NCBI GenBank assembly: GCA_019218315.1
Contig: JAHUUI010000003.1
Location: forward strand, 330,443-394,442
Length of the DNA: 64,000 nt
Reading direction: 5' to 3'
Source: Cardiobacteriaceae bacterium TAE3-ERU3
GTDB lineage: Bacteria; Pseudomonadota; Gammaproteobacteria; Cardiobacteriales; Cardiobacteriaceae
Made by a program: the position numbers and the translations under genes. Below are positions 5,846 to 33,697 of this stretch, one piece after another. Each line of letters begins with the position of its first letter. Positions within the stretch are counted from its first letter, which is position 1. The notes beneath the pieces were generated by a model. The model worked only from the letters and a program-made list of their open reading frames with translations. It was not told the origin of the DNA and did not search any database.

Positions 5846-6099
5846 GGTGATTCCTTTCCATACCCTGACTGCTTCATGAAACCACACCAGCAACCTTTCA
5901 GGGCTAAAGGAGCTTGCGCTTTACCAGTTTTATTTAACATCGTGCTGGAAGTTGCCGCTGCAACGCGAAACGTTGCACCATTAAACCCACGATGACACTT
6001 ACATAATTTTATGGCGCAATATTCTACCTACAAATCAACCGCACTGCCAACTCTCCATTTCCACTCGCTTTACTCAAAGCATATATTTGGGCATCATAC

Positions 6100-6172
6100 G
6101 CCAAGGGGTGCTGTCATCTTGGCGGCTGAGAACAAACCCTTAAACCTGATGTAGATAATCCTACCGGAGGGA
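6100..6172 (+). promoter_or_regulatory. TPP riboswitch (THI element) before thiB
   Basis: Conserved THI-box blocks in order: AGGGGTGC (6104-6111), P3 stem GCTGTC/GGCGGC, GGCTGAGA (6124-6131), CCCTT (6137-6141), AACCTGAT (6143-6150), P5 stem GTAG/CTAC around ATAATC, and GGAGGGAA at the 3' end. P2 can form as AGGG/CCCT. A clear P1 helix is not visible. The 3' conserved block is also the Shine-Dalgarno sequence of thiB, whose ATG begins at 6175, so TPP binding probably hides the ribosome-binding site directly. Family knowledge: this element lowers expression when thiamine pyrophosphate is abundant. Confidence 0.92.
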
Positions 6173-6174
6173 AA

Positions 6175-7155
6175 ATGAAGCACATCATCTTAAGTGCAGC
6201 CATCCTTGCTGCCTCACTGAACGTCGCACATGCTGCCGACAAACAACTCAACGTCCTCACCTACAGTTCTTTTGACTCAGACTGGGGGCCAGGCCCCAAA
6301 ATCACTGCTGAATTTGAAGCACAATGTGACTGCACCATCAACTGGCTCACGGCTGAAGACAGCGTCATGATGCTGCGTCGCCTGCAACTTGAAGGCGACG
6401 CACTTGAAGCGGATGTCATTGTCGGGCTCGACAATCAAAGCATTGCCGATGTACTTGATACTGGATTGGTTGCAGACCTCAAAGAACCAATTGCCACCCG
6501 CTTTGGCGACGCAAAAGATGCCATCCCGTTTGACTACGGCTATCTTGCCTTTATCAAGCGCAAGGACAGCGACGTTCCGGCACTCAATAGCTTGAACGAC
6601 CTCGCCAACGCCAGCAACGACCTCACTATCGCTATTGAAGATCCGCGTACCAGTAGCGTTGGTGCATCCATGCTTGCGTGGGCGGAAAGCGAAACAGAAA
6701 ATCCCGCTGAATTCTGGCGCAACCTTAAGCCGAAATTAAGCGCGATTACCAGCGGATGGTCAGAGGCATACAGCCTGTTTACAGGTGGCAACGTTGACAT
6801 GGTGCTTTCCTACACTACCTCGCCGATTTACCATCAAATCGTCGAAGACGACAACAACTACGAAGCCATACTTTTCGATCAGCCACACTACGAGCAAATT
6901 GAATACGCCGTTGCACTCAAGCACGCCGCCGAGCCACAGCTTGCCGAAGACTTCCTGCACTACCTGATTAAACCTGAAACACAGGAATCCATCGCCCTGA
7001 CCAACTGGATGTATCCGGTAGTTGATGGAGTCGAACTGCCTGCGGCATTTACTGATGCACCACGTCCTGAAGGGGAAAACCTACCACCAGCTGAAGTCGC
7101 CAAAGATATGCCAAAGTGGCTCGACACATGGAAAAGCGTCATTCTTGCAGAATAA
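6175..7155 (+). CDS. thiB: thiamine/TPP ABC transporter, periplasmic binding protein
   Basis: 326 residues with a cleavable signal peptide (cleavage likely after NVAHA, residue 20), then a mature domain starting with LNVLTYSSFDSDWGPGP, the characteristic opening of ThiB/TbpA. It captures thiamine, thiamine phosphate or TPP in the periplasm and delivers it to ThiP. First gene behind the TPP riboswitch; thiP and thiQ follow after an interposed secreted-protein gene. The NWMYPV segment near the C-terminus agrees with family members. Length matches the E. coli protein (about 327). Confidence 0.95.
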   Translation: MKHIILSAAILAASLNVAHAADKQLNVLTYSSFDSDWGPGPKITAEFEAQCDCTINWLTAEDSVMMLRRLQLEGDALEADVIVGLDNQSIADVLDTGLVADLKEPIATRFGDAKDAIPFDYGYLAFIKRKDSDVPALNSLNDLANASNDLTIAIEDPRTSSVGASMLAWAESETENPAEFWRNLKPKLSAITSGWSEAYSLFTGGNVDMVLSYTTSPIYHQIVEDDNNYEAILFDQPHYEQIEYAVALKHAAEPQLAEDFLHYLIKPETQESIALTNWMYPVVDGVELPAAFTDAPRPEGENLPPAEVAKDMPKWLDTWKSVILAE

Positions 7156-10438: not shown

Positions 10439-10514
10439 TGGCTCCCGGAGACGGGCTCGAACCGCCGACCCAATGATTAACAGTCATTTGCTCTACCGAC
10501 TGAGCTATCCGGGA
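10439..10514 (-). tRNA. tRNA-Asn (GTT), copy 1
   Basis: 76-nt cloverleaf read on the minus strand: acceptor TCCCGGA/TCCGGGA plus G and encoded CCA, D-arm with AGTCGGTAGAGC, anticodon loop CTGTTAA with anticodon GTT, T-loop GGTTCGAGCC. Identical to the copy at 10583-10658. Confidence 0.97.
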
Positions 10515-10582: not shown

Positions 10583-10658
10583 TGGCTCCCGGAGACGGGC
10601 TCGAACCGCCGACCCAATGATTAACAGTCATTTGCTCTACCGACTGAGCTATCCGGGA
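10583..10658 (-). tRNA. tRNA-Asn (GTT), copy 2
   Basis: Same 76-nt sequence as copy 1, including CCA, separated from it by 68 bases of unrelated sequence. The two are probably one transcript ending at the hairpin at 10406-10432. Confidence 0.97.
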
Positions 10659-28602: not shown

Positions 28603-29823
28603 TTAAAACTTGACGTAAAAATACAGCACCAACATGGCAACGAGATACGCCAGTCCCAGCCATGCCCACGCCGACAACCAACGGTTGCCCTTACCGTCGC
28701 GGTACAAGGTGAAATTGAGCCACGCGAACATCGGCGCAGAAATAAACGACATGGTCATCGCGAACGGAATCATTTTGCCCACCGAGCTTTGGAAAAAGAC
28801 GATGATGACAAACGACACGATACTCGCACCGAGCATCCAGTAAAACACTTCGTTGCGCGTGGTGTGCGGGCGCTTGAGCAGCAAATGCACCGCAGTCATG
28901 TTGGTGCGCGAATAGCCATCCACAGCGGTCAAAGTCGTACCGTAGATGCAGACAAAGGCGAGCAAGCCGATAAACCAGCGCGTCCATTCGCCAATCGCCT
29001 GTGCGTACATATTGACGAACTGCGCGACGTATTTGCCGCCAGCAGCCTGCGGGAAATCCTGCCCGTATTGCATCAATGCACCGAGGGTCATGAACACCAG
29101 CGCAAGCACAATGGTCACGCCATAGCCGACGTTGAAATCAAGCATACCGTCACGCAAACTGATTTTGTTCAGGTGCTGCTTTTCCACCACCCACATCGAC
29201 GTGGCGACACTCAATTCCATCGGCGCGGGCATCCAGCCCATCAGCGCAATCAAGAACGGAATGCTGGCAAACGTCCACGGTGACGGCTCGACAAAGCTGT
29301 CCGGCACACGGCTGCCTTCGGTGGCAACGCTCCACACCGCCATCACCAGCGCGATAATGGTAATCACCGTAAGGATTAGCATCAGGTTTTTCGACAGCAT
29401 GTCGAGAATCGGATATTGCTTTTTCGCCAATATGAGCAAAAAGCTGATTAACACGCCAATGCTCAGCCACGTCAGCGACCAGTCAAACGGCAACAGCGGC
29501 GACAACAACGCCGCCGACAATAATGCACCACCGGCAATATTGACCACCGTGGCAATACCGTTGAACAGTAAAAACAGCCACAAATACACATTGCCCTGCG
29601 CGGCGTAGCCTTGCAGCACGCTTTGCCCGTTTTGCAGGGCGTAACGATAGGCGAAACGGTAAAACGGATATTTGAGCAGGTTCACTGCGATGATAAATCC
29701 GGCTAGTTGCAGGCCGAATTGCGCACCGGCCTGCGTCGAGGCGATGATGTGCGAGCCACCAATCGCCGACGACGCCATAATCAGACCAGGGCCAAACCGG
29801 TTGAGGGTTTGTCGTAGCCGCAC
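28603..29823 (-). CDS. divergent Nramp-fold transporter lacking metal-site motifs
   Basis: 406 residues, about 11 hydrophobic segments. N-terminal FGPGLIMASSAIGGSHIIAS aligns with the first helix of Nramp, but the metal-binding DPGN is replaced by IGGS (21-24), and the helix-6 MPH motif is WMPAPME (197-203). Thus both canonical Mn/Fe ligand sets are missing, as in the Nramp-related clades that move other substrates. It starts 3 bases after thiY and is followed by thiM in a TPP-riboswitch operon, so a role in taking up a thiamine precursor such as the thiazole moiety, or a needed cation, is inferred. Database annotation would probably call it a divalent metal transporter; the motif loss argues for caution. 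Confidence 0.8.
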   Translation of the reverse strand: MRLRQTLNRFGPGLIMASSAIGGSHIIASTQAGAQFGLQLAGFIIAVNLLKYPFYRFAYRYALQNGQSVLQGYAAQGNVYLWLFLLFNGIATVVNIAGGALLSAALLSPLLPFDWSLTWLSIGVLISFLLILAKKQYPILDMLSKNLMLILTVITIIALVMAVWSVATEGSRVPDSFVEPSPWTFASIPFLIALMGWMPAPMELSVATSMWVVEKQHLNKISLRDGMLDFNVGYGVTIVLALVFMTLGALMQYGQDFPQAAGGKYVAQFVNMYAQAIGEWTRWFIGLLAFVCIYGTTLTAVDGYSRTNMTAVHLLLKRPHTTRNEVFYWMLGASIVSFVIIVFFQSSVGKMIPFAMTMSFISAPMFAWLNFTLYRDGKGNRWLSAWAWLGLAYLVAMLVLYFYVKF

Positions 29824-29826
29824 AGC

Positions 29827-30780
29827 TTATTCCTGCGGTAATTGCACGGCGTAGTCAGCCAGTGGCTGTACCTTATCAATCATGCCGTTTTCCTTGAGGA
29901 ACTCTGCCATACGGATGTAGCTGTTATTGTCCAGCGCACGCGGACGCAAGGCCAGACGCGGTAAAGTGTCGCCCCAAGCGCGGCGATTGAGCTCATTGTC
30001 GAGATCGTCGGGCTTATACGCCTGAAACGCATCCCACGATTCATCCGGATGATTGAGGGTATAGACGGTCGCTTCTTCAACCGCGGTGAGGAAGCGCTCG
30101 AAGCGTTCATCATTGACGTTATTGGCATTGGCGACCAGCACCAGCTCGTCATAAGACGGCACGCCGTGTTCTTCGGGGTAGAATGCCAGCCCCGGATGCC
30201 CTTCCAGATCCAATGTGTTCAACTCGAAGTTGCGGTAACCGCCAAATACGGCATCCACCTGACCGGCAATCAGCGAAGGCGCAAGCGAGAAGTTGACGTT
30301 AACCCATTTCACGTCGTCCGTAGTCAGACCGGCACTGCGCAGCATGGCACCGAGAAGACTTTGCTCGAAACCGCTGACCGAATAACCGATTGTTTTGCCT
30401 TTGAGCTGGGCAATTTCGCTGATACCGCTGCTTTCGAGTACGGTCAGGGTATTGAGTGGTGTGGAAATCAGCGTACCGATGCGCTTGATTGGCAAACCTT
30501 CGGCAACCGCCATTTGCAACTGCGGCTGGTAATCGACCGCCAGATCGCCTTGTCCGGCAGCGAGCAACTTGGGTGGCATCGACGGGTCAGCCGGTTCGAT
30601 AAATTCCACGTCCAGATCGTGCTTGTCGAAAAAGCCCTTTTGCTTGGCAACAATCAGCGCGGCATGGTCGGGATTGACGAACCAGTCGAGCAACACCGTC
30701 ACTTTATCGGCTGCGAACGACGCGGAGGCTGAAGCAAGTAGTGCTGTGGCGAGGATGGATTTGATAATGGTTTTTTTCAT
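29827..30780 (-). CDS. thiY: thiamine-pyrimidine precursor ABC transporter, binding protein
   Basis: 317 residues, NMT1/THI5-like periplasmic binding protein. Signal peptide to ASFAA (about residue 23). DWFVNPDHAALIVAKQKGFF is the family opening; ADPSMPPKLLAAGQGDLAVDYQPQ and GFEQSLLGAML line the pocket. ThiY relatives bind N-formyl-aminopyrimidine or HMP for salvage by TenA and ThiD. Co-operonic with ThiX and ThiZ, but separated from them by two tenA genes. Confidence 0.92.
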   Translation of the reverse strand: MKKTIIKSILATALLASASASFAADKVTVLLDWFVNPDHAALIVAKQKGFFDKHDLDVEFIEPADPSMPPKLLAAGQGDLAVDYQPQLQMAVAEGLPIKRIGTLISTPLNTLTVLESSGISEIAQLKGKTIGYSVSGFEQSLLGAMLRSAGLTTDDVKWVNVNFSLAPSLIAGQVDAVFGGYRNFELNTLDLEGHPGLAFYPEEHGVPSYDELVLVANANNVNDERFERFLTAVEEATVYTLNHPDESWDAFQAYKPDDLDNELNRRAWGDTLPRLALRPRALDNNSYIRMAEFLKENGMIDKVQPLADYAVQLPQE

Positions 30781-30790
30781 GGTTTAGTCC

Positions 30791-31444
30791 TTAAGATTGT
30801 TCATAAGCATAAGTAAAGAAGTCACGTTCCAACTTGCAACAATGGCGGAACAGCTCTTTGAGGCGCTGCTGCTCCGCTTCCGGCAATTCAGCCATGGCAT
30901 CGAGTTCACTACGCAACCAGATAACAAACTGCTCGAATTCGGGATTGTTGTGCAAGGTAATCCATTCGTTGAAATAGAACGCTTCAGGCTGATGGTCGCG
31001 ATAAGTGTCTGCCCACGTCCAGTACGTCCATTCCGCGCACGCCAATGCCACAATACAATCGTAATAGCCCGCTTTTGTTGATTGGGCAATTACATCTGCA
31101 AATCCCTGCATTACCGGATTCAAGGCTGGATCAAGGTATTCATCTTCACTAACACCAAGCGCGGCAAACGAGCGCAGGAAGTAGTCATTTTCACCATCGG
31201 TGACCACGCTCAAAAAGCCCGACAAACGGTGCATTTGCTCCATGGTTTTGGCGTGAACAATCGCATAAGACACAATGTCTGAAAAATGGCGGAAAAAGGC
31301 ATAATCCTGAATCAGGTAATACTTGAATGCTTGCTCACTCAAGCGCCCTGTAACCATCTCCTGAATAAAAACGTGATCGGTTGCTTCGCGCCAATAAGGT
31401 TCGGCGTGTGCGCGAACGGTTTCCGAAAAAGATTGTTTCGTCAT
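30791..31444 (-). CDS. tenA: TenA-family thiaminase II-like protein, paralogue 2
   Basis: 217 residues, all-helical TenA fold. YYLIQDYAFF gives the substrate-binding Asp; LACAEWTYWTWA holds a Cys at the catalytic position but with AEW in place of the usual loop; LERDFFTYAY carries the C-terminal Glu. Hydrolyses aminopyrimidine breakdown products or thiamine to HMP. It differs clearly from the adjacent paralogue in the active-site loop, so the two may take different substrates. 10 bases upstream of thiY. Confidence 0.9.
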   Translation of the reverse strand: MTKQSFSETVRAHAEPYWREATDHVFIQEMVTGRLSEQAFKYYLIQDYAFFRHFSDIVSYAIVHAKTMEQMHRLSGFLSVVTDGENDYFLRSFAALGVSEDEYLDPALNPVMQGFADVIAQSTKAGYYDCIVALACAEWTYWTWADTYRDHQPEAFYFNEWITLHNNPEFEQFVIWLRSELDAMAELPEAEQQRLKELFRHCCKLERDFFTYAYEQS

Positions 31445-31455
31445 ATTTTTGCTCC

Positions 31456-32106
31456 TTAAGATAAATCCAAACCCATTTGCCAGAACGCCACTTCCATGCG
31501 TGTGGCGGTGTCAAAAATATGCTGCAAACGCGCAGCTTGCGTTGGTGATACGTCTTTGGCTAAATCGTCAAACATCTGCCGCGACGCATCGGCGCTGGCA
31601 AAAAATTCATCGCTGCTGTACATATCAATCCACGCCTGATAGGGGTTGTCGGCAACCGCGGGCTGTGCGGCGAGTTCGCGCCCGATTTCTGCGTAACCGT
31701 AAATGCACGGCAGCAAAGCAGCGTAGAGTTCGGCGAGACCGCCGGTCATGCCACAATCGAGTACATAGCGGGTATAGGCGACGCAGGCCGCAGATTCAGG
31801 GACATGTTGTAATTCGGCTTCGCTGATGCCCCATTCGGCGCAGTAATCAATGTGCAGGGCGATTTCCATGTCGAGCATGGCGTTGATACCGGCTTGTCCG
31901 GCACGCATTTGCGCAAAGCTGTCGCTTTTATATACCGCCAGCGCCCATGCGCGGGTGAATTGCAGCAGGAACAGATAATCCTGCTTGAGGTAATGCTGGA
32001 AACTGGCTTTGGCAAGCGTGCCGTCACCGAGTTGACGCACAAATGCGTGGCGCGTGTAATCCGGCCACGCGGGGCAATTGGCTTTAAGGTCGGCAAAGGT
32101 TGTCAT
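31456..32106 (-). CDS. tenA: TenA-family aminopyrimidine aminohydrolase, paralogue 1
   Basis: 216 residues. YLKQDYLFLLQF (Asp of the active site), LLPCIYGYAEIG (catalytic Cys and Tyr, spaced C-x3-Y as in B. subtilis TenA Cys135/Tyr139), and TRMEVAFWQMGL (Glu equivalent to Glu205). This is the canonical Cys-type TenA, which converts aminomethyl-pyrimidine to HMP in thiamine salvage. 11 bases before the second tenA gene and 19 bases after thiX. Confidence 0.93.
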   Translation of the reverse strand: MTTFADLKANCPAWPDYTRHAFVRQLGDGTLAKASFQHYLKQDYLFLLQFTRAWALAVYKSDSFAQMRAGQAGINAMLDMEIALHIDYCAEWGISEAELQHVPESAACVAYTRYVLDCGMTGGLAELYAALLPCIYGYAEIGRELAAQPAVADNPYQAWIDMYSSDEFFASADASRQMFDDLAKDVSPTQAARLQHIFDTATRMEVAFWQMGLDLS

Positions 32107-32125: not shown

Positions 32126-32869
32126 TTAGAGATGCTTTTGCCACGGAATCCACTTTTTCAGCAGCGTATCCGTGGTGAAATAGAGAGTCAGGGACATCAG
32201 CACCAAAATCAGCAGTGCGGCAAACACCAGCGCCGATTGCATACGTGCATTGGCCTGCAACATCAGGTAACCCAGCCCTTCGGCCGAACCAACCCACTCG
32301 CCGACAATCGCGCCAATCGGTGCGCAAGTCACGGCAATGCGCAAACCCGATGCAAGCGATGGCAGCGCGGCAGGTAAGCGGATGCGGGTGAGGATTGCCC
32401 AGCGGCTGGCGTGCAAGGTGTGGGCTAGGTCTATCCATTGCGTCGGGGTATTGCGCAGGCCGTCGTAGCACGATGCGGTCACAGGGAAATAAATAATCAA
32501 CACTGCCATCATCACTTTCGAGCCCATGCCGTAGCCAAACCACAGCACCAGCAACGGCGCGATAGCAAATACCGGTACGGCTTGTGACAACACAAACAGC
32601 GGCATCATCACCGCCGACAGGCGCCGCGACAGCATCAGAATCAGCGCCGAACACAAGCCGAGCGAAAAGCCGAACACCAATCCGAGCAGGATTTCGAGCA
32701 GCGTGACCTTGGCATTTTTGTATAGCAGAGGCCATTGTTTGACCAGCGTTTGCGCCACGTCCCACGGCGAAGCGACGATATAGCGCGGCAAAGAAAAAAC
32801 CGTGACCACGAGCTGCCACAGGGCAATCAGCGCTACGGTAATCAAGAGGATTTTGCCGACCTGCTTCAT
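32126..32869 (-). CDS. thiX: thiamine-precursor ABC transporter permease
   Basis: 247 residues, six membrane helices, SsuC/ThiX-type permease with an EAA loop (DLAHTLHASRWAILTRIRLPAALPSLASGLR). Forms the inner-membrane channel for the substrate delivered by ThiY. Its ATG overlaps the thiZ stop by 4 bases, so translation is coupled. Confidence 0.92.
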   Translation of the reverse strand: MKQVGKILLITVALIALWQLVVTVFSLPRYIVASPWDVAQTLVKQWPLLYKNAKVTLLEILLGLVFGFSLGLCSALILMLSRRLSAVMMPLFVLSQAVPVFAIAPLLVLWFGYGMGSKVMMAVLIIYFPVTASCYDGLRNTPTQWIDLAHTLHASRWAILTRIRLPAALPSLASGLRIAVTCAPIGAIVGEWVGSAEGLGYLMLQANARMQSALVFAALLILVLMSLTLYFTTDTLLKKWIPWQKHL

Positions 32870-33564
32870 GACAACGCCTCAAGGAGTTTGGCTTGCAACA
32901 CCGGTTGTGCCGCTTCGGGGGCAAAGCGCGGGCGTGCGCCGTCAGGGATAAATGGCGTACTGATACCGCCTTCGTGCATGACGTAAATCACATCGGCGAG
33001 GCGGATGGCTTCGAGCGGGTCGTGGGTAATCAGCAGCACGGTTTTATCGCCGAGCAGGTCAACTGCAAGGCGTTGCAATTCCAAGCGGGTAATTGCATCG
33101 ACTGCGGAAAACGGCTCGTCCATCAGCACAATGCTCGCTTCAGACATCAAGGTTCGTGCCAGAGCGGCACGCTGCCTCTGACCGCCGGAAAGCTGATACG
33201 GTGGCTTGTCAGCGTGTTCGCCAAGTCCGACTTTGTCGAGCATCGCGCGTGCTTGTGTCGCAGTCGTTTTGCTTTGCGAGCCGTGCAGGCGGTGACGCAG
33301 TTGCACGTTATCGAGAATGCTTAACCACGGCAATAGCGCATCTTTTTGCGCCATATAGGCAATGCCGTCGTTGTTGTTGAGGGTAATATTGCCTTGTTGG
33401 CTTGCGCCGTGGTCGAGCCCGGCAATCGCTTTAATCAGGGTTGATTTACCGCAGCCAGAACGGCCAAGCAATGCAACCCACTGCCCCCGCTCGATATGCA
33501 AATCGAGACCGGCAACCAGCGGTTCAGCACCATAGGCGAGTGATAGATTGGATAATTGAATCAT
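32866..33564 (-). CDS. thiZ: thiamine-precursor ABC transporter ATPase
   Basis: 232 residues from ATG 33564. A TTG seven codons earlier gives a longer frame but falls inside the hairpin. Walker A LLGRSGCGKST, Q-loop YMAQKDALLPW, signature LSGGQRQRAALARTL, Walker B IVLMDEPFSAVDAIT and H-loop ITHDPLEA, all of the taurine/nitrate/ThiZ branch. Energises ThiX. No real Shine-Dalgarno precedes the ATG; it overlaps the stop of a 19-codon frame (ATGA) and follows a hairpin by 3 bases, pointing to coupled initiation. Confidence 0.92.
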   Translation of the reverse strand: MIQLSNLSLAYGAEPLVAGLDLHIERGQWVALLGRSGCGKSTLIKAIAGLDHGASQQGNITLNNNDGIAYMAQKDALLPWLSILDNVQLRHRLHGSQSKTTATQARAMLDKVGLGEHADKPPYQLSGGQRQRAALARTLMSEASIVLMDEPFSAVDAITRLELQRLAVDLLGDKTVLLITHDPLEAIRLADVIYVMHEGGISTPFIPDGARPRFAPEAAQPVLQAKLLEALS

Positions 33565-33620
33565 CTGGCTTTGCCGGAAAGGCAAAGCAGCGTGTTTTGA
33601 TAAGACGGCAAGTGGTTCAT
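33561..33620 (-). CDS. 19-codon leader peptide between TPP riboswitch and thiZ
   Basis: ATG at 33620 directly after the riboswitch P1 helix; AGGA 7-10 bases upstream is part of the aptamer. Peptide MNHLPSYQNTLLCLSGKAR, stop TGA overlapping the thiZ ATG. Codons 11-18 form a hairpin (33568-33588) that would cover the thiZ start region unless a ribosome passes. Sequence itself shows no known motif. Coding status is inferred from the tight arrangement and not from conservation. Confidence 0.5.
   Translation of the reverse strand: MNHLPSYQNTLLCLSGKAR
33568..33588 (-). promoter_or_regulatory. hairpin over the thiZ initiation region
   Basis: Perfect 8-bp stem GCTTTGCC / GGCAAAGC with loop TTTCC, ending 3 bases before the thiZ ATG. 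No U-run follows, so it blocks or gates translation and is not a terminator. Confidence 0.6.
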
Positions 33621-33621
33621 G

Positions 33622-33697
33622 CTTGTTTCCTACGTCAGTACTAACTGCTTCAGGTTCACGGGTATGATCTCAGTCCACTCAAGGACACCCCGACAAG
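33622..33697 (-). promoter_or_regulatory. TPP riboswitch of the thiamine salvage operon
   Basis: Minus-strand THI element: P1 CTTGT/ACAAG, P2 CGGG/CCCG, GGGGTGTCC, P3 GTCC/GGAC, CTGAGA, ACCCG, GAACCTGA, P5 CAGT/ACTG, then GTAGGAAAC. All core blocks are present. The 3' GGAAAC is the ribosome-binding site of the 19-codon leader frame, so TPP would shut initiation there. Heads nine genes from thiZ to thiE. Confidence 0.94.

Follow-up and report, generated by a model that had tools for sequence, protein, structure and literature searches.

A TPP riboswitch predicted to act on thiZ through a translated leader frame in a Cardiobacteriaceae genome

In the genome of the Cardiobacteriaceae bacterium TAE3-ERU3, the window, i.e., the whole stretch of 64,000 nucleotides analysed here, carries on its minus strand a thiamine operon with the gene order thiZ-thiX-tenA-tenA-thiY-Nramp-like-thiM-thiD. 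Based on Pfam matches, these genes correspond to thiZ, encoding an ABC transporter ATPase (32866-33564; ABC_tran), a thiX-like permease (32126-32869; BPD_transp_1) whose ATG overlaps the thiZ TGA as ATGA (32869-32866), two tandem tenA-like genes (32106-31456 and 31444-30791; TENA_THI-4), a gene for a thiY-like substrate-binding protein (29827-30780; NMT1/THI5-like), thiM (28517-27729; HK) and thiD (27713-26925; Phos_pyr_kin). The two tenA-like genes, although lying side by side in a single thi operon (30791-32106), differ from each other. Between thiY and thiM, the Nramp-like membrane transporter (28603-29823) lacks any match in Pfam and reaches NCBIfam Nramp_1 only below the cutoff (43 bits against 50); it may carry a precursor of thiamine instead of a metal. 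Elsewhere on the minus strand of the window, two tRNA genes (10442-10514 and 10586-10658), 71 bases apart, have identical reported sequences.

On the same strand and 5' of these thiamine genes, as expected of a TPP riboswitch, lies a TPP riboswitch aptamer (RF00059; 33702-33610), which covers the full model (positions 1-105) and scores 63.2 bits (cmscan, E 4.8e-10), above the gathering score of 54.3. Its 3' end, UAGGAAACAAGC (33632-33621), comprises the 3' strand of P4, a Shine-Dalgarno sequence AGGAA and the 3' strand of P1, ACAAG (33626-33622). According to the sequence and the aptamer alignment, both AGGAA and ACAAG belong to the conserved aptamer 3' end UAGGAAACAAG. A single C separates the 3' strand of P1 from an ATG at 33620, for which AGGAA is suitably placed (anti-Shine-Dalgarno duplex of -4.2 kcal/mol) and from which a leader frame of 19 codons plus TGA, translated as MNHLPSYQNTLLCLSGKAR, runs to 33561. 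The TGA (33563-33561) overlaps the thiZ ATG (33564-33562), both being contained in an ATGA at 33564-33561. Inside the leader, folds predict a hairpin of 8 bp, GCUUUGCC-UUUCC-GGCAAAGC (33588-33568), followed by CAG and then by the thiZ ATG, i.e., with a gap of 3 nt. All these elements, namely the ribosome-binding site in the aptamer 3' end, the ATG one base after P1, the 19-codon frame with its overlapping stop and the position of the hairpin, had been described in an earlier note made from the sequence alone and were found as described.

The same holds for the claim that thiZ has no Shine-Dalgarno sequence of its own, since the best anti-Shine-Dalgarno duplex before its ATG reaches only -1.7 kcal/mol, while purine-rich Shine-Dalgarno-like stretches are present at thiX, both tenA genes, thiY, thiM and thiD. 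The thiZ start is also the most structurally closed among the eight operon starts computed, opening the region from -18 to +13 costing 16.3 kcal/mol against 2.2-13.5 kcal/mol for the seven others. An upstream TTG (33585) was considered as the true thiZ start and rejected, as no Shine-Dalgarno sequence is visible before it and it sits within the hairpin. The Shine-Dalgarno sequence of the aptamer is positioned for the leader ATG at 33620 and thiZ starts 56 nt further downstream, so that direct occlusion of the thiZ ribosome-binding site by the aptamer does not describe this locus. The contrast drawn in the earlier note, between a two-step relay and a first structural gene occluded directly, is incomplete, the usual mode of TPP riboswitches being an exchange between P1 and anti-P1.

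Taken together, these features suggest that the riboswitch at 33702-33610 is probably, by a modest degree of confidence, a translational-OFF switch acting on thiZ through a relay, where translation of the leader and opening of the hairpin would be the intermediates; leader translation, reinitiation and the TPP response are what we infer from the layout. In the absence of TPP, the aptamer would loosen and ribosomes would initiate at 33620, pass through the hairpin, melting it, and terminate at the TGA at 33561, whereupon the same or a following ribosome would initiate at the overlapping thiZ ATG. In the presence of TPP, P1 and the aptamer core would conceal the leader Shine-Dalgarno sequence; no ribosome would then pass, the hairpin would remain shut and thiZ would be off, together with thiX, itself overlapped with thiZ by ATGA. 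The untranslated transcript may additionally be ended by Rho. Such indirect control of thiZ by TPP is given somewhat better than even chances. The earlier note had read the locus as this two-step relay, a reading partly supported, by the Shine-Dalgarno sequence within the aptamer, the closed thiZ start, a hairpin predicted to form independently of the aptamer and similar layouts in distant bacteria, but not by conservation in close relatives.

The leader frame and its overlap are by themselves weak evidence, since the probability of a frame ended by ATGA arising by chance at this locus is about 0.17-0.2: about 17% of shuffles keeping the ATG and thiZ end in this way, as do about 20% of those out of the thiZ frame. 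Likewise, and this the earlier note had overlooked, all three frames of the leader region are almost stop-free, hence 19 open codons say little about coding. The peptide MNHLPSYQNTLLCLSGKAR had no family match when searched with two filler residues added so as to attain the minimum query length; with no frame-specific substitution pattern in the leaders of Marinobacterium either, a conserved peptide product was ruled out and the peptide itself is probably irrelevant. The hairpin is more distinctive, as a perfect hairpin of at least 8 bp occurs in 0.2% of shuffled leaders with Watson-Crick pairs only and in 1% when wobble pairs are admitted. It is not a dispersed repeat, since its core is found at only one other place in the genome.

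Among the other explanations, the best surviving one, although judged unlikely, is classical strand exchange. In the ligand-free state, GGAAACAAGC would pair with the 5' arm and loop of the hairpin, GCuUUGccUUUCC, as an anti-P1 freeing the thiZ start, while with TPP both P1 and the hairpin would form and close thiZ, the leader frame being incidental. Such an exchange has been published for E. coli thiC and tbpA, a bulged 10-bp pairing between GGAAACAAGC and GCuUUGccUUUCC does exist, and in several leader loci of other genomes (L132, L160) the gene start changes strongly with the aptamer. This bulged anti-P1 was absent from the earlier note. The pairing is, however, no better than in shuffles, 20% of which are as good. 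A duplex test restricted to a short tail missed the known E. coli helix and was thus uninformative, so constrained folding was used instead. By this procedure, forcing the anti-P1 in the leader of the window costs 10.5 kcal/mol and the helix is absent from the ligand-free ensemble, whereas in E. coli thiC the anti-P1 is the ligand-free ground state, matching the publication (PMC5234074). An anti-P1 that opens the start as the ligand-free ground state, as in E. coli thiC, is therefore not what the model gives at thiZ; even if opened, moreover, thiZ would have no Shine-Dalgarno sequence.

Constrained partition functions further give the hairpin a probability of 0.993 in the ligand-free RNA and of 0.997 with the aptamer imposed; being formed in both cases, it should not be opened by the aptamer alone. 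In a longer RNA reaching further into thiZ, the hairpin forms with a probability of about 0.69, competing pairings taking up the remainder, and opening the thiZ start still costs 13 kcal/mol. A wider comparison is less clear-cut: as modelled, the change in start accessibility upon P1 formation is similar at thiZ and in E. coli thiC (2.2 and 2.7 kcal/mol, respectively), and what differs is the absolute level, ligand-free opening costing 13.5 kcal/mol at thiZ against 7.4 kcal/mol in E. coli thiC. On these folding models, thermodynamics favours a hairpin that is not opened by the aptamer, and thus the relay through the leader over classical strand exchange, with a co-transcriptional kinetic switch being possible.

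A second explanation, more doubtful again, is that the leader frame and the ATGA are chance by-products of a purine-rich aptamer 3' end followed by an ATG, in which case thiZ would be poorly and constitutively translated, or controlled mainly at the mRNA level, by Rho. The chance probability given above agrees with this, whereas the unusual hairpin and the outlying thiZ start speak against it; the remaining evidence comes from the comparison with other genomes. The leader layout seen in the window is not kept in any close relative, whether in the same genus or among the 12 genomes of the family. In the one same-genus genome available, the riboswitch precedes thiD, with an ordinary sequestered Shine-Dalgarno sequence and neither leader ATG nor frame; in the family at large, the gene behind the riboswitch is thiD, thiB, a thiM-like gene or thiZ, and the platforms are different ones. 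The expression platform also varies between family members: in one of them (L102; 1527-1630), the TPP aptamer and thiZ are separated by a hairpin that resembles a terminator, oligo-T tract included.

In two distant Gammaproteobacteria found as ThiZ relatives (L072 and L074), on the other hand, the succession of aptamer, ATG, 19 codons, ATGA and thiZ is present, with thiX, thiY and tenA located downstream of thiZ in L072, and with little or no Shine-Dalgarno sequence at either thiZ. The ThiZ proteins of these two genomes are 74% identical and their aptamers near-identical, while their leaders are only 40% identical; both leaders are nonetheless exactly 60 nt long and end with ATGA, i.e., length, start and overlap are unchanged despite sequence turnover. 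ThiZ from the window is 47-48% identical to these two proteins, which makes a recent transfer unlikely. In Marinobacterium, where the first gene is thiD, leaders of 22-23 codons end with ATGA in ten loci examined, leaders of 20 codons occur in three and have a stop beginning 4 nt upstream of the thiD ATG, and the thiD Shine-Dalgarno sequence falls within a predicted pairing. The Marinobacterium leaders have no coding-type substitution pattern, in keeping with a chance origin of the frame, and their alignment contains no compensatory changes in the hairpin. As far as can be judged from these sequences, the leader architecture is conserved in Marinobacterium, the peptide and the helix being only putative. 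Compared across relatives, as the earlier note had proposed, the leader frame and its overlap are present in distant genera (L072, L074 and Marinobacterium) and absent from the genus and the family; for the hairpin, the Marinobacterium alignment, with no compensatory pairs, speaks neither for nor against it.

At the level of the class, 369 evenly sampled genomes were surveyed for an aptamer 3' end with an ATG within 14 nt, the gene starts being picked by hand from homology, and 75 of them contained matches, some of which are not TPP aptamers. By hand count, 11 genera have leaders that run without a stop up to the gene start in the -1 frame, i.e., of the ATGA type, and no genus has such leaders in the +1 frame, which weighs against chance in this evenly sampled class. 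Those in the -1 frame mostly end exactly with ATGA or GTGA, before thiC, thiZ or thiO; the remaining leaders are in-frame fusions or meet early stops. Endings of the ATGA type were found at 13 of 27 loci for 4.6 expected (P 7.5e-5), and at 12 of 24 after removal of repeats (P 2e-4). A survey of 398 genomes of the phylum retrieved mostly Pseudomonas-like thiC and enteric-like thiM, two labels inferred from the gene and the type of genome, for which leader frames are mixed, as expected by chance and as the chance explanation would have it. Owing to this mixture, the bias pooled by genus is weaker than first seen (roughly 16 against 4 by hand count, P about 0.006). From these sequence counts, selection appears to have favoured ATGA coupling in certain lineages but not everywhere.

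Two other arrangements were encountered. In a set of closely related, Pseudomonas-like genomes (L207-L213), an ATG follows the thiC aptamer in all matched loci, and its frame relative to thiC varies by species (ATGA, long overlap or fusion). In L118, L138, L149, L152 and L169, the frame starting from the aptamer Shine-Dalgarno sequence continues, in phase and without a stop, into thiC, by which ThiC would gain an unannotated N-terminal extension.

Transcriptional control by the hairpin as an intrinsic terminator or a remnant thereof is very improbable and was rejected in its terminator form. A terminator-like structure does follow the TPP aptamer of L102, but in the window the coding strand has no T tract behind the hairpin and the terminator scan was positive on the opposite strand only. 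On that opposite (plus) strand, the hairpin of 33568-33588 is followed by a T-rich tail giving the terminator-like score, which is probably incidental.

TPP riboswitches are the most widespread class of riboswitches and are usually explained by strand exchange between P1 and anti-P1. If the relay through a translated leader is true, it would explain loci where neither a switching helix nor a Shine-Dalgarno sequence is visible, and some thi gene starts would depend on an unannotated upstream ORF. More broadly, a leader ORF adjoining the TPP aptamer, with its Shine-Dalgarno sequence inside the aptamer and its stop overlapping the first gene, could be a recurrent and repeatedly evolved platform in Proteobacteria (before thiC, thiD, thiZ and thiO), where the ribosome rather than strand exchange opens the gene, a generalisation held tentatively and at somewhat less than even chances. 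The question is directly testable, as the relay and strand exchange predict opposite effects of one and the same start-codon change.

Within the same genome, a second TPP aptamer (about 6094-6189, plus strand), which at 53.4 bits narrowly misses the gathering score, precedes thiB. Its 3' end also supplies a Shine-Dalgarno sequence, the ATG of the thiB-like binding protein lying two bases after GGAGGGA; since this ATG is that of thiB itself, the layout is direct and involves no relay. Compared with the TPP riboswitches of E. coli thiC and tbpA, in which P1/anti-P1 strand exchange acts directly on the gene (PMC5234074, PMC11487190), the locus of the window shares a TPP aptamer, a putative translational OFF control of thi genes and a closed gene start, but in E. 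coli thiC the aptamer is not directly followed by a leader ATG, and a purine stretch is retained ahead of the gene start. Synthetic ribo-attenuators, in which ribosomes driven by a riboswitch open a hairpin blocking a second start (Folliard et al. 2017, PMC5496857), resemble the thi locus in the overlapping stop and start and in the hairpin, here predicted, at the second start; they differ in being engineered, with a leader of 150 bp, a hairpin hiding a strong ribosome-binding site, and addA and btuB aptamers. A 2025 review of translational coupling leaves riboswitches unmentioned, and among the open-access papers searched none described a TPP riboswitch with a coupled leader ORF.

The closest natural counterpart is the B12 riboswitch-uPPE2-ppe2 system of Mycobacterium tuberculosis, where the riboswitch hides the Shine-Dalgarno sequence of a short uORF (Kipkorir et al. 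2024, PMC11260477). There, ppe2 has no obvious Shine-Dalgarno sequence and overlaps the uORF by AUGA, and its expression was demonstrated to need uORF translation, mainly through termination-reinitiation (PMC11260477). In the thi locus, the leader Shine-Dalgarno sequence sits in the conserved aptamer 3' end, where TPP would conceal it, and thiZ, devoid of such a sequence, overlaps the leader stop by AUGA; a similar coupling is predicted. The two systems diverge in that ppe2 belongs to Actinobacteria and has a B12 aptamer and, as expression platform, a hairpin surrounding the uORF start, while in the thi locus the TPP aptamer itself contains the Shine-Dalgarno sequence and an extra hairpin is located within the leader. 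If the relay is true, the principle of one B12 switch and of the synthetic ribo-attenuators would be used by a second natural class of riboswitches; the logic of the relay is already proven for M. tuberculosis B12-ppe2, and a version with a TPP aptamer would be what is new.
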